From positions 1 to 50,249 of IMG/VR virus record IMGVR_UViG_3300030906_000025: a stretch of 50,249 bases of DNA. The stretch is one strand, 5' to 3'. Below are positions 17,703-21,838 of the stretch, piece by piece. The notes under the pieces are model-generated. The model searched no databases. It saw only the letters and a program-made list of their open reading frames with translations, and was not told the DNA's origin. Every line of letters starts with the position of its first letter. Positions within the stretch are counted from its first letter, which is position 1. A program made the position numbers and the translations under genes. Source of the stretch: a virus.

Positions 17703-19310
17703 TCACCTCCCTGCTCCTACGAGTTCGCGGGCAGGCGGGAGTTCGGCGAGGGCCTGGGTGCGGCGCGCCCGGTAGGTGCGCCGCCATTCCTCGTCGAGGC
17801 TCTCGCGGGGCCCCGTGCCTTGCGGCAGGTCGCCGGCCAGGCCGGGGCCGTCCTCGGGGCCGAGCGGCGACGCGTCGAACGGGACGGGCTGGACAACGGG
17901 CGGCTCAACGGGATCCGGCTTGCTGAGCGTCACCGGGGTGCCGGGTGTCGGGGCGTCGGGCTCCAGGGAGGTGCCCTTGAGCTTCATGGCAATGCCGGCC
18001 TTGGACATGGCGTCCATGTCGGACCACTTGACGAGGTTCTGGCGGTCGACCAGGACCGGGTCGTCGCCGCCGTCGACGGGGGGTTCGCCGATCTCGTCGC
18101 GGACGCGGTTCAGGGTGTAGGAGCCGTTGCGCAGGCGGGTGTCGCGGATGTTCTCAACGGTCGTCGAGTCGCGGTAGTCGATCTCGGGGAATTCGAGGTG
18201 CCAGTCCTCGATGCCGAAGCCCTGCTGCAGCAGATGAAAGTTGATCTTCTCCAGGACGAGGGACTGCACCGGGATGATGGTGTTGATTCGCAGCGTTTTG
18301 TCCTGAGACTCCCCAGTGCCGCCGCCCAGGTTGCCGGACTCGATGATCCCCAGCTTGCCCGGCGGGACACCAAACGTGGCGATGATCTCGTCGCGCAGTT
18401 GCTTGCTGGCGGCCAGGTAGTCGGTGACCTTGCGCGGGTCCAGGACCTCGACCTTGCCGTCGCCGGTCGTGATCGTGGGGTTGCCGACCGCCTTCGGCCC
18501 CAGATTGAAGACCATGTACTGCTCGCGCCACCGCTGCACCTCAGTGTCGGACAGGTGCCCGAGGTCGACGTGGATCCGCGGCGGGTCGCCCCGGCGGAAA
18601 CACTCCTTGATCGTCGCTTCGGTGAACAGCCACGCCGTCACCGGCAGCAGTGCCTTCTGCGTCGGACCCACCCCGTAGGAGCCACCCCGCGGCGCGTCCA
18701 GCGAGATGTGGATGACCTGCTCCGGAGTGAACTCGGCCGTCCGCGTGCCGCCCAGGCCGTCCACAACCTGGATGTACCCGGTGACCTCGCCGTGCGCGTC
18801 CGCGACGACCGTCATCGTCGTCGAGTCCAGGGTGTACAGCGCGACCGGCTCGCCCAGCAGCGTCACGATCTCGATGTACGCGTCCCCGAACAAGTTCAGG
18901 TCGATCACAGCGGACCGCAGGAGCTGCACCATGTCCTGGCGCGGGTTCACATACCGCATCAGGCGGCGCAGCCGTGTCACCTCGGGCGTGTCCGGCGGCA
19001 CTGTCCCGTCGTCCGACAGCGCATCCGACACCACCTGCAGGCCGCCCGCAGTGACCGTGCGTGCGATCAGATCGATCGGCGCGGCCACCCACGGGCACGT
19101 CAGGTACGCCTGGTACAGCTGCGTCATGACCTGCTGGCGTTCCTGGCTGTACGCTGCCGCGGTGCGCGACGTCGTCGGCATGAGCGCCGTGCCGTACTCG
19201 TAGCCGATACGCTGCGCGCCCGCCGCAGCCGAAGCCGACGGACCGGCCGGGGCGGCCTCGGCTACCGGGGTCCGGCGGAAGGCATCGCGGATACGTGCTC
19301 CTAGCCCCAC
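17703..19310 (-). CDS. Portal protein
   Basis: Dodecameric DNA channel at the capsid vertex. 535 residues of the HK97 (SPP1/HK97-type) portal family. The core shows YLTCPWVAAPIDLIARTVTA at the N-terminal wing, LNLFGDAYIEIV and ALYTLDSTTMTVV strands, EQVIHISLDAPRGGSYGVGP, and the stem/channel helix region KQLRDEIIATFGVPPGKLGI. The C-terminal ~90 residues are Pro-rich and disordered, then basic. It overlaps the end of the large terminase gene by ten bases, as expected for a packaging-to-head operon. Confidence 0.95.
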   Translation of the reverse strand: MGLGARIRDAFRRTPVAEAAPAGPSASAAAGAQRIGYEYGTALMPTTSRTAAAYSQERQQVMTQLYQAYLTCPWVAAPIDLIARTVTAGGLQVVSDALSDDGTVPPDTPEVTRLRRLMRYVNPRQDMVQLLRSAVIDLNLFGDAYIEIVTLLGEPVALYTLDSTTMTVVADAHGEVTGYIQVVDGLGGTRTAEFTPEQVIHISLDAPRGGSYGVGPTQKALLPVTAWLFTEATIKECFRRGDPPRIHVDLGHLSDTEVQRWREQYMVFNLGPKAVGNPTITTGDGKVEVLDPRKVTDYLAASKQLRDEIIATFGVPPGKLGIIESGNLGGGTGESQDKTLRINTIIPVQSLVLEKINFHLLQQGFGIEDWHLEFPEIDYRDSTTVENIRDTRLRNGSYTLNRVRDEIGEPPVDGGDDPVLVDRQNLVKWSDMDAMSKAGIAMKLKGTSLEPDAPTPGTPVTLSKPDPVEPPVVQPVPFDASPLGPEDGPGLAGDLPQGTGPRESLDEEWRRTYRARRTQALAELPPARELVGAGR

Positions 19311-21838
19311 GGTCCACCGCCCCCCGTCGCGACGGGGAAACCGCCGAAGCTCGTCGGCAGCTGCGCCGGAGGGAGAGGAACGGTGACCGCGGGTTGGGCC
19401 TGCGGGTCGACGTGGGTTGTCTCAGGCTCTTCGCCAGGGAAGTGCCAGCGGGACTCACCACCGATCGACATGATCAGGTAGCGGCAGTTGTGCACCAGGA
19501 CGCCGTTGGCGAAGTACTCCTCGACGTCTTCGACGGAAAGGTTGTATACGTCAGCCCGTCCGGCGTCGGACAGTCCAAGAACATGCGCGGGAGCAATTTC
19601 GGGTCGAGGCGTAGCGATTGATGCGGAACGTCTCGCCGCAGCCCTCGCACGTGCGGTCCACGTCGTCGATTCCGCTCGCCTTTCGGGCATAGGCGCGGCA
19701 CTTCCCAGAACAAAACCGCGTCGATTCGTTGCGGTCGGTAGTTTCGAACACCTCGCCGCAATGCGCGCACGCCAGCGTGCGCGGCTCGCGCCCGATCCAA
19801 GCTCGCCTTCCGTTCTCGGAGTGCCAGGCACGCCCCTCGTCGCTGCGGTGCCATTCTGCGGCCAGCTGCTGGTTAGCCGCCCATGCCGTGCGCTGAGCAT
19901 CGCTCCGCGGCTGATCCCCGTGATGAGAGCGGTGGACCTCGTTGGGCACACAGACGAGATTGTCGATCGAGTTGTTGTCTGGATCGTGGTCCCGATGATG
20001 GGTATCGAAGCCCTCGGGTATCGGGCCGTGTGCAGCCTTCCAGATTTCCTGATGGAGGCGGCCGACGCCGCGCGCGCGATGACTCCCGCCTGGCGTGAAG
20101 TAGACCTGTTCAGTTCTGCGCTTGGCGTCCGGATAGCGGCGGAAAGTGATGCCGTTGAAGACGACAGATTCAACCCTTGGGCGCTTGCGTGGCATGTCTG
20201 AATTCTATCAAGGTATCTCAGGGAATCGAGCCGAACGAAGCCTTCCCCCTGCACGAAGACGGGATGATTCCCGGTTCCAATCAGCTCGCGTCCGTTGCTC
20301 ATTGAGACCTTGAGTACGGGCTGCGCAATGCCAGTGCGAGCTGAGTCGCGCACCCGTCGCCACCCCTGTCGGGTCATCACTTCGTCGCCGACGCGGACGT
20401 CCTCGATGGGGACGTCGCCGCGGCTCGTGGAGATCAGCGTCCCGGCAACGAAGCAGGCGTCGTACCAATGGTCTGGGCCATCGGTGTCGACGTCCTCCGG
20501 CCGGTGCGGATCGCGCGGCAGCTCGCCCATGGTCTTCGTGAACTGCGGGCAGGCGCCGTCGAGGATATGCAGCAGCGGGCAGGTCGCCCAACCGAGTTCG
20601 CGGTGGTAGGCGCACGCTGGCGCTTCGGCGAGGTAGGTGTGCATGCGGGCCTTGCCGCCGAGCCGGTCGGTGTCGGCCTTCGTCAGGTGCAGGCCCTCGG
20701 TCGCCATCTGATCGGCCGGCGGGAGCGAGGACCCCGTCTTGCCCCACATGGCGGGGTCGGCCGCGATCGCCAGCACATGATGGCCGGCGTTGGCGTCGAG
20801 GATCTGCCGGGCCTGCTCGCGCTCCGGTGTCTGGACCATCGTCAGCTCGCGGTAGAACCACAGCCGCCCGTCGCCGTCCTTCGCCGCGGCCAGGTACACC
20901 GACGGCGCTGCCCAGCCGTAGTCCATGCCGCCGCGCCGCTGCCACGATGCGGGCAGCTCGCACGGCGGGACGACGATCCGGTCGCGCTTCCAGTCCGGGA
21001 ACGCGGCGTCAGGCATCGCGGACCAGTCCCCGTCCTTGATGCGTGCACGCAGGTCCGGGTCAGCGATGCCTTCGAGGCTCTTCTCGTAGTCGCCGACGTA
21101 CGGATTGTCGGACGCCTTCGCGGGGATGAAGATCCGGCGCCGCCCGGCCCTGTCGACGATCTCCTTGGTGCCGTAGTCGGTGGCGTCGACGTAGTCGTCC
21201 TTGACGACGCCGTGCCCGATGTGGCCGGGGTTGCTGGCGGAGCGTGCGCCGAGGCAGGGCACGCCTTCGACGCCGGAGCGGATGCGCGTGTAGAGGAAGT
21301 CCACGACTTCAGGCGGCATCGTGGTGCGCTCATCGATGACGAGCATGTTGATCTCCGCGCTACTGAGCGCGGCGGCCTCTTCCATGTTCTTCGCGTGCGC
21401 GAACGTCAGGATCGAGTTGCCGGGGAACCGCAGCTCGTACTTCGAGCCGTTCCAGATTCCGCCGACCGCCTTGGCGTAGTTGTATCGCGCCAGGTTCCGC
21501 AGCACCGACTGGTTCAGCTGCGGGAACGTCTTGCGGAACCAGAAGATCTGGATGCCGGGGAAGCGGACGCAGGTGCGGATGACCAGGGCCAGCAAGCTCT
21601 GGGACTTGCCGCCGCCGCCAGCCCCGCCGTAGAGCACGTCGAGGTCTTCGTCGGGCAGGGCAAGGAACCGCTCCTGCGGGCAAGTCCCGCACATCGGCGG
21701 CAAGTCGGCCTCGGGGGTCCCGGCCAGTCGGGCGAGGACCCGCGGCTTGCAGACCGGTTCGAAGCCCAGCACCGTCAGCGTGTCGGGCTTCTCGAACTCC
21801 CGGGCCGCGTACTCGGCCCAGTCCATGGTGGCGGTCAT
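19301..21838 (-). CDS. terL: Terminase large subunit interrupted by an intein
   Basis: DNA packaging motor and nuclease. 845 residues as translated; the mature protein after splicing would be 522. Walker A is GGAGGGGKSQS (~71-81), Walker B is INMLVIDERT (~163-171). The nuclease begins with GGMDYGWAAPSVYLAAA and AADPAMWGKTG; its last metal-binding Asp is in DHWYDA, directly followed by the intein (residues 462-784) and then CRYLIMSIGG. The intein therefore sits in the active site motif, so an unspliced protein should be inactive. C-terminal tail Pro/Gly-rich. Confidence 0.93.
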   Translation of the reverse strand: MTATMDWAEYAAREFEKPDTLTVLGFEPVCKPRVLARLAGTPEADLPPMCGTCPQERFLALPDEDLDVLYGGAGGGGKSQSLLALVIRTCVRFPGIQIFWFRKTFPQLNQSVLRNLARYNYAKAVGGIWNGSKYELRFPGNSILTFAHAKNMEEAAALSSAEINMLVIDERTTMPPEVVDFLYTRIRSGVEGVPCLGARSASNPGHIGHGVVKDDYVDATDYGTKEIVDRAGRRRIFIPAKASDNPYVGDYEKSLEGIADPDLRARIKDGDWSAMPDAAFPDWKRDRIVVPPCELPASWQRRGGMDYGWAAPSVYLAAAKDGDGRLWFYRELTMVQTPEREQARQILDANAGHHVLAIAADPAMWGKTGSSLPPADQMATEGLHLTKADTDRLGGKARMHTYLAEAPACAYHRELGWATCPLLHILDGACPQFTKTMGELPRDPHRPEDVDTDGPDHWYDACFVAGTLISTSRGDVPIEDVRVGDEVMTRQGWRRVRDSARTGIAQPVLKVSMSNGRELIGTGNHPVFVQGEGFVRLDSLRYLDRIQTCHASAQGLNLSSSTASLSAAIRTPSAELNRSTSRQAGVIARAASAASIRKSGRLHTARYPRASIPIIGTTIQTTTRSTISSVCPTRSTALITGISRGAMLSARHGRLTSSWPQNGTAATRGVPGTPRTEGELGSGASRARWRARIAARCSKLPTATNRRGFVLGSAAPMPERRAESTTWTARARAAARRSASIATPRPEIAPAHVLGLSDAGRADVYNLSVEDVEEYFANGVLVHNCRYLIMSIGGESRWHFPGEEPETTHVDPQAQPAVTVPLPPAQLPTSFGGFPVATGGGGPWG
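19551..20195 (-). CDS. HNH endonuclease nested out of frame within the TerL intein
   Basis: 214 residues on the same strand as terL but in a different reading frame. It starts MPRKRPRVESVVFNGITFRR; the HNH core is FDTHHRDHDPDNNSIDNLVC followed by NEVHRSHHG. Two Cys modules follow, CAHCGEVFETTD...CSGKC and CEGCGETFRI...CSRAC, probably zinc-binding DNA contacts. It has its own ATG, no ribosome site, and TAGAAT ending six bases upstream, so it may be transcribed separately and leaderless. It would promote homing of the intein without being part of it. Confidence 0.88.
   Translation of the reverse strand: MPRKRPRVESVVFNGITFRRYPDAKRRTEQVYFTPGGSHRARGVGRLHQEIWKAAHGPIPEGFDTHHRDHDPDNNSIDNLVCVPNEVHRSHHGDQPRSDAQRTAWAANQQLAAEWHRSDEGRAWHSENGRRAWIGREPRTLACAHCGEVFETTDRNESTRFCSGKCRAYARKASGIDDVDRTCEGCGETFRINRYASTRNCSRACSWTVRRRTG
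20196..20207 (-). promoter_or_regulatory. Candidate leaderless -10 element for nested HNH gene
   Basis: TAGAAT, then TCAGAC, then the HNH ATG. The local sequence is AT-rich for this genome. The pattern matches the one before the other HNH gene. Confidence 0.45.

Follow-up and report, generated by a model that had tools for sequence, protein, structure and literature searches.

How does an intein come to contain an endonuclease that is not part of its own polypeptide? The question is raised by a viral DNA of 50,249 nucleotides (IMG/VR record IMGVR_UViG_3300030906_000025; this whole stretch is the window below), in which an intein sits inside terL, the gene for the terminase large subunit (TerL), and an HNH endonuclease gene lies out of frame within the intein. 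Our analysis confirms this layout. We consider it very probable that the locus is a mobile terL intein whose homing endonuclease is encoded by a gene of its own, an HNH gene in the -1 frame of the intein linker. The nesting, the conserved frame, the avoidance of stops, the intact HNH, the predicted Hint fold, the empty sites and the initiation signals can all be read from the sequence.

The HNH gene and the intein around it

19551 to 20195, minus strand: HNH endonuclease gene, 214 amino acids plus stop, with an HNH core and two CxxC...C zinc motifs (HNH_3 1.2e-13, phrog_15471 3.5e-36)
19487 to 20455, minus strand: intein of 323 amino acids (Cys1 ... His-Asn), TerL residues 462-784 (Hint_2, Intein_splicing, TIGR01443, AlphaFold Hint fold)
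20183 to 20455, minus strand: Hint N-terminal part with blocks A and B (TGNH) (predicted local distance difference test, pLDDT, 94-97 over intein residues 1-90)
19604 to 20182, minus strand: intein-frame linker overlapped by the HNH, open, unconserved and predicted disordered (pLDDT <50; 0 stops in relatives)
19487 to 19603, minus strand: Hint C-terminal part with blocks F and G (...VLVHN) (pLDDT 93-97; TIGR01443)
19301 to 21838, minus strand: terL open reading frame for the unspliced TerL precursor, 845 amino acids (uninterrupted frame; phrog_2 terminase large subunit 1e-29)
20456 to 21838, minus strand: N-extein of TerL, whose last residues, ...DHWYDA, belong to the third catalytic Asp motif of the nuclease domain (alignment with uninvaded relatives L008-L018)
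19484 to 19486, minus strand: +1 Cys, first residue of the C-extein; uninvaded relatives have Gly or Ala (comparison with relatives)
19304 to 19486, minus strand: C-extein of TerL, CRYLIMS... (reading of the terL frame)
17703 to 19310, minus strand: portal protein gene, directly downstream of terL (Pfam Phage_portal 3e-27)

The original prediction placed the intein at 19487-20455 with complete splicing blocks, and the same coordinates were recovered. The intein matches Pfam Hint_2 (5e-9) and Intein_splicing (2e-8), and its C-terminal part matches TIGR01443 (1e-5). The splicing residues are all present, namely CFVAGT with Cys1, TGNH in block B and VHN followed by the +1 Cys, and they are invariant in relatives. 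In the AlphaFold model of the intein frame both Hint parts reach pLDDT 93-97, and the overlapped linker is below 50 at almost all of its residues (93-283). The predicted Hint fold resembles DnaB mini-inteins (Foldseek, E 1.5e-6). The intein is not split in the window, as both halves lie on the single open reading frame 21838-19301, and it is not a canonical intein with a fused endonuclease, as the HNH occupies the -1 frame with its own start and stop. A group I intron or other RNA element was rejected, an Rfam search giving no match up to E = 1.

The prediction of the HNH as a gene of its own, in a frame other than that of the intein, was also borne out. The HNH starts 260 nucleotides past Cys1, which places it in the -1 frame relative to the intein, and TGA and TAG stand three codons 5′ of its ATG in its own frame. 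The predicted protein has a mean pLDDT of 95 and retains every residue that is invariant in the family (H66, H67, D69, N74, N75, N79 and the Cys pairs). It combines the HNH motif with DNA-binding zinc motifs, as an HNH homing endonuclease does. Its best structural and sequence match is I-HmuI (PDB 1u3e), a weak one (E 0.03 to 0.2), and I-HmuI differs in being intron-encoded.

Frame conservation in relatives

Relatives were gathered by tblastn against phage records, by two IMG/VR profile scans, one with the HNH and one with only the intein N-part, and by a scan of GTDB genomes. The tblastn search found the same layout in Tetrasphaera phage TJE1, Acinetobacter phage Highwayman and one Rhodobacteraceae phage. 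The HNH is unannotated in all three records, so such genes have probably been missed widely. The original prediction proposed to check the frame offset in related terL genes, where an HNH always in frame would speak against it, and the result was the opposite: among 131 distinct nested loci the HNH lies in the -1 frame in 130, in the +1 frame in one and in frame in none. The +1 locus (L135:2802-3602, on a planctomycete contig) has its HNH start inside the codons of Hint block B, and its overlap looks independent. The intein-only search returned 80 loci, 74 of them with a -1 HNH signal inside the open reading frame, four mini-inteins without HNH, one locus truncated where its contig stops and one with an antisense nuclease. 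In the host genes that were scanned, the sequence upstream of the intein matches terminase large subunit families. Insertion points cluster at several neighbouring codons of the third catalytic Asp motif of the TerL nuclease, and a few lie at the first motif (GADWGFA-C...HNC-DP). A TerL relative of the window carries an insert of ~1.4 kb between TerL residues 70 and 78 (L017:3171-4594).

It could be argued that an ancestral in-frame intein endonuclease was freed by two compensating frameshifts, as the original prediction had suggested, or that a sequencing error produced the offset. The intein endonucleases described to date are mostly in frame, and we detected in-frame nucleases in other inteins, an HNH in a ribonucleotide reductase (RNR) intein (L152) and a DUF559-type nuclease in L239, so the scans were able to see them. 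No in-frame HNH was found among ~190 TerL-associated loci, with the reservation that both IMG/VR scan queries were peptides conserved in this family and more distant in-frame TerL inteins could escape. In-frame relatives were rejected as ancestors, since they were found only in those other inteins. The -1 frame is constant from 29 to 70% GC, isolate genomes (TJE1, Highwayman, Frankia and Glycomyces) included; 8.6 kb of the window is identical in a second IMG/VR record of 76 kb; and the HNH genes have retained start codons and initiation signals of their own. We give this explanation scarcely any credence.

The nested arrangement also leaves its mark on the intein frame. With the synonymous codons of each HNH resampled at its own codon usage, ~485 stops are expected in that frame across the 130 -1 loci and none is found, which does not agree with the suggestion that the frame stays open by chance. 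Over all 131 loci the tested frame has 6 stops against ~489 expected. L135 accounts for all six, its intein being written in the other frame, which is open. Free-standing and split HNH homologues have 193 stops against 194.4 expected. In the one remaining frame there are 2329 stops against 2156 expected. A place in the -1 frame is thus about four times cheaper in stops, a possible reason for the preference for that frame. Across 21 independent pairs, substitutions at HNH codon positions 1, 2 and 3 number 1088, 836 and 1861, and the HNH frame is 65% identical, against 41% for the linker frame. Both the position bias and the identities indicate that the HNH protein is conserved and the linker is not.

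Translation start of the nested gene

The 123 nested HNH starts comprise 112 ATG, 10 GTG and one TTG, and two initiation signals are enriched before them. A Shine-Dalgarno sequence precedes 44/123 starts and 454/5326 control triplets (p 2e-16), TANNNT ends exactly 6 nucleotides before 31/123 starts and 52/5326 control triplets (p 4e-31), and the two occur together in a single locus (mutual exclusion p 3e-6), all these p values treating the loci as independent although they are related. The extended form TGnTANNNT is present in 19 of those 31 starts and at 1/5326 control triplets. Because the TANNNT boxes overlap conserved GD codons of the Hint domain, we applied a null in which the same amino acids are recoded synonymously. 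Both forms exceed it, TANNNT-N6 with 31 against 11.9 +/- 2.4 and TGnTANNNT with 19 against 3.3 +/- 1.5. The HNH appears, on these signals, to be translated independently of TerL, through a Shine-Dalgarno sequence or a leaderless start.

These starts bear on whether the HNH might instead be fused to the intein N-part through programmed -1 ribosomal frameshifting. A -1 slip would indeed reach the frame in which the HNH sits. In 99/127 loci, however, an in-frame stop lies no more than 60 nucleotides upstream of the HNH, slippery heptamers fall in the permitted interval in 8/127, the same as in the control (0.058), and the start codons are those enriched for Shine-Dalgarno or -10 signals. We regard fusion by frameshifting as highly improbable.

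In the window the putative start signal is of the leaderless type:

20202 to 20210, minus strand: extended -10 box TGATAGAAT, a putative leaderless promoter in intein codons, ending 6 nucleotides before the HNH ATG

The arrangement TGATAGAAT-N6-ATG has P = 5e-5 given the amino acids and the codon usage of the gene, a value that carries the caveat that the intein, whose N-part has 62% GC against 69%, may differ in codon history. The box uses GAT, AGA and ATT codons, which are rare or absent elsewhere in the gene. No Shine-Dalgarno sequence precedes the window HNH, which would fit a relic, an intein that still splices around an HNH no longer expressed in this phage. The retention of every family-invariant residue and the box at leaderless spacing speak against a relic, and we think it unlikely.

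Proposed mobility, decay and comparison with known systems

Nine close relatives (in the range L008-L018, with TerL 77-91% identical) have an uninterrupted DHWYD(A/G/S)(G/A)RYL, so the intein is a precise insertion with empty-site homologues. The original prediction put it between YDA and RYL of the nuclease active site. The YDA side stands; on the other side the boundary is the +1 residue, Gly or Ala in uninvaded relatives and in the invaded terL the Cys required by splicing. The DHWYDA motif is one that we take to be catalytic, as in TerL nucleases generally.

An HNH beside a terminase need not be a homing endonuclease. HNH proteins adjoining terminase genes, such as the one beside the HK97 terminase, can assist cos cleavage (PMC10448857), and free-standing relatives of the window HNH adjoin terL in other phages. 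Against a packaging cofactor, no HNH was found in the records, which are fragments, of the seven uninvaded relatives searched; the HNH lies within a mobile intein; and it degenerates or is lost altogether while the intein frame remains intact. We judge this role very unlikely, and a homing endonuclease remains the reading that we prefer.

Several states of the element were observed. L193 and L172 have HNH remnants whose catalytic core is gone and an intein frame that is still open, and L164, L165, L220 and L230 are TerL mini-inteins of the same type, HNH-less and with a linker of 45-48 nucleotides. Lactobacillus phage CL2, Brochothrix phage BL3 and several contigs have TerL in two parts, and there TerL-IntN, HNH and IntC-TerL are separate open reading frames. 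Split TerL inteins with an HNH between the halves are L030 (CL2), L034 (BL3), L051, L053, L073, L090, L126 and L130; in L030, L051, L073 and L126 the intein halves belong to separate polypeptides, and in BL3 the HNH is truncated to its tail. In a tree of 161 HNHs the nested, free and split states are mixed, with ~15 to 20 changes by parsimony, of which strongly supported branches require at least 3-4. The deep branches are weak and the tree is unrooted, and for that reason we claim no direction of change. Distances of HNH, Hint and TerL correlate weakly (0.19-0.26) and are saturated, hence uninformative on co-inheritance. As far as these loci indicate, the decayed, mini-intein, split and free-standing states complete a cycle. 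In a non-TerL phage protein, the inteins L212 (=L232), L237 and L238 contain an antisense nuclease open reading frame of 325-363 amino acids, Cys-rich and DUF559/Vsr-like, which lies wholly within the intein, and the intein frame is open across it.

In the mechanism that we propose, TerL would be made as a precursor in which the Hint halves fold around the disordered linker, and the intein would splice out to restore ...DHWYDA-CRYL.... The HNH would be made separately, here most likely from a leaderless transcript that begins at the ATG and is driven by the internal extended -10 promoter; relatives often appear to initiate by a Shine-Dalgarno sequence instead. During co-infection the HNH would cut uninterrupted terL, presumably near the codons of the nuclease active site, and repair of the cut gene would copy intein and HNH jointly. 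The need for a spliceable TerL would keep the intein frame free of stops, and homing would maintain the HNH until it decays.

Several points weigh against this interpretation. That the intein splices, that the HNH gene is transcribed, that its product cleaves and where, and that the element homes, we infer from sequence. In the GC-rich window alone a second frame would be open by chance with P ~0.55, so the significance of the open frame rests on the relatives, and the nested loci share kinship and are hence not independent observations. Insertion codons vary by up to a few residues between relatives that use one HNH family. Neither initiation signal is clear in 49/123 relatives. The -35 region looks good by eye and does not exceed the protein-aware null, and we therefore claim only the extended -10 box.

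Canonical mobile inteins resemble the window element in their Hint splicing blocks, in a nuclease placed at the usual loop of the Hint fold and in insertion at a catalytic motif. They differ in that their nuclease belongs to the intein polypeptide itself. Dassa et al. reportedly described, in 2009, fractured genes in which the two halves of a split intein flank a free endonuclease. Those genes likewise have a separate endonuclease gene within the intein, and the same HNH family occurs between split TerL halves, whereas the window intein is one contiguous polypeptide whose coding sequence the HNH overlaps. In collaborative homing a free-standing HNH lies beside the interrupted gene (PMC10448857). 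There too the endonuclease is not fused to the intervening element, and the same gene region would be targeted, but the window HNH is inside that element.

The closest published precedent is the ShiLan insertion in a phage methylase gene, where the host frame is open across the insert and an HNH occupies the third frame, without an intein and with leaderless translation proposed (PMC11855218). To say that no example of such nesting has been described would thus be too strong. The shared features are an HNH that carries zinc motifs, its place in the third (-1) frame, a host frame that is open across the insertion, a disjunct distribution and the lack of a Shine-Dalgarno sequence. ShiLan has no splicing blocks and its methylase is dispensable, whereas in the window a complete Hint domain flanks the HNH, the gene is essential and promoter-like boxes are found. 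An actinobacteriophage intein preprint ('Non-Canonical Architecture', bioRxiv 10.1101/2025.01.02.630785) appears to concern overlapping-frame inteins, to judge from its title and its citation in the ShiLan paper. As far as these two go, it may already cover related cases, and priority is uncertain.

We tentatively suggest, at somewhat less than an even chance, that these loci belong to a widespread and previously unrecognised class of mobile inteins. Their endonuclease would be an independent overlapping gene, usually in the -1 frame, also in the +1 frame and, in other inteins, antisense and DUF559-type, partly driven by its own leaderless promoter in the GD codons of the Hint domain. Such a class would link free-standing endonucleases, mini-inteins and split inteins. 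How inteins are assembled is an old question, and the TerL loci present splicing element and endonuclease as two genes on shared DNA, with decayed, split and free-standing states close by. The initiation signals offer a testable answer to a question that the ShiLan paper did not settle, that of how such hidden HNH genes come to be translated.
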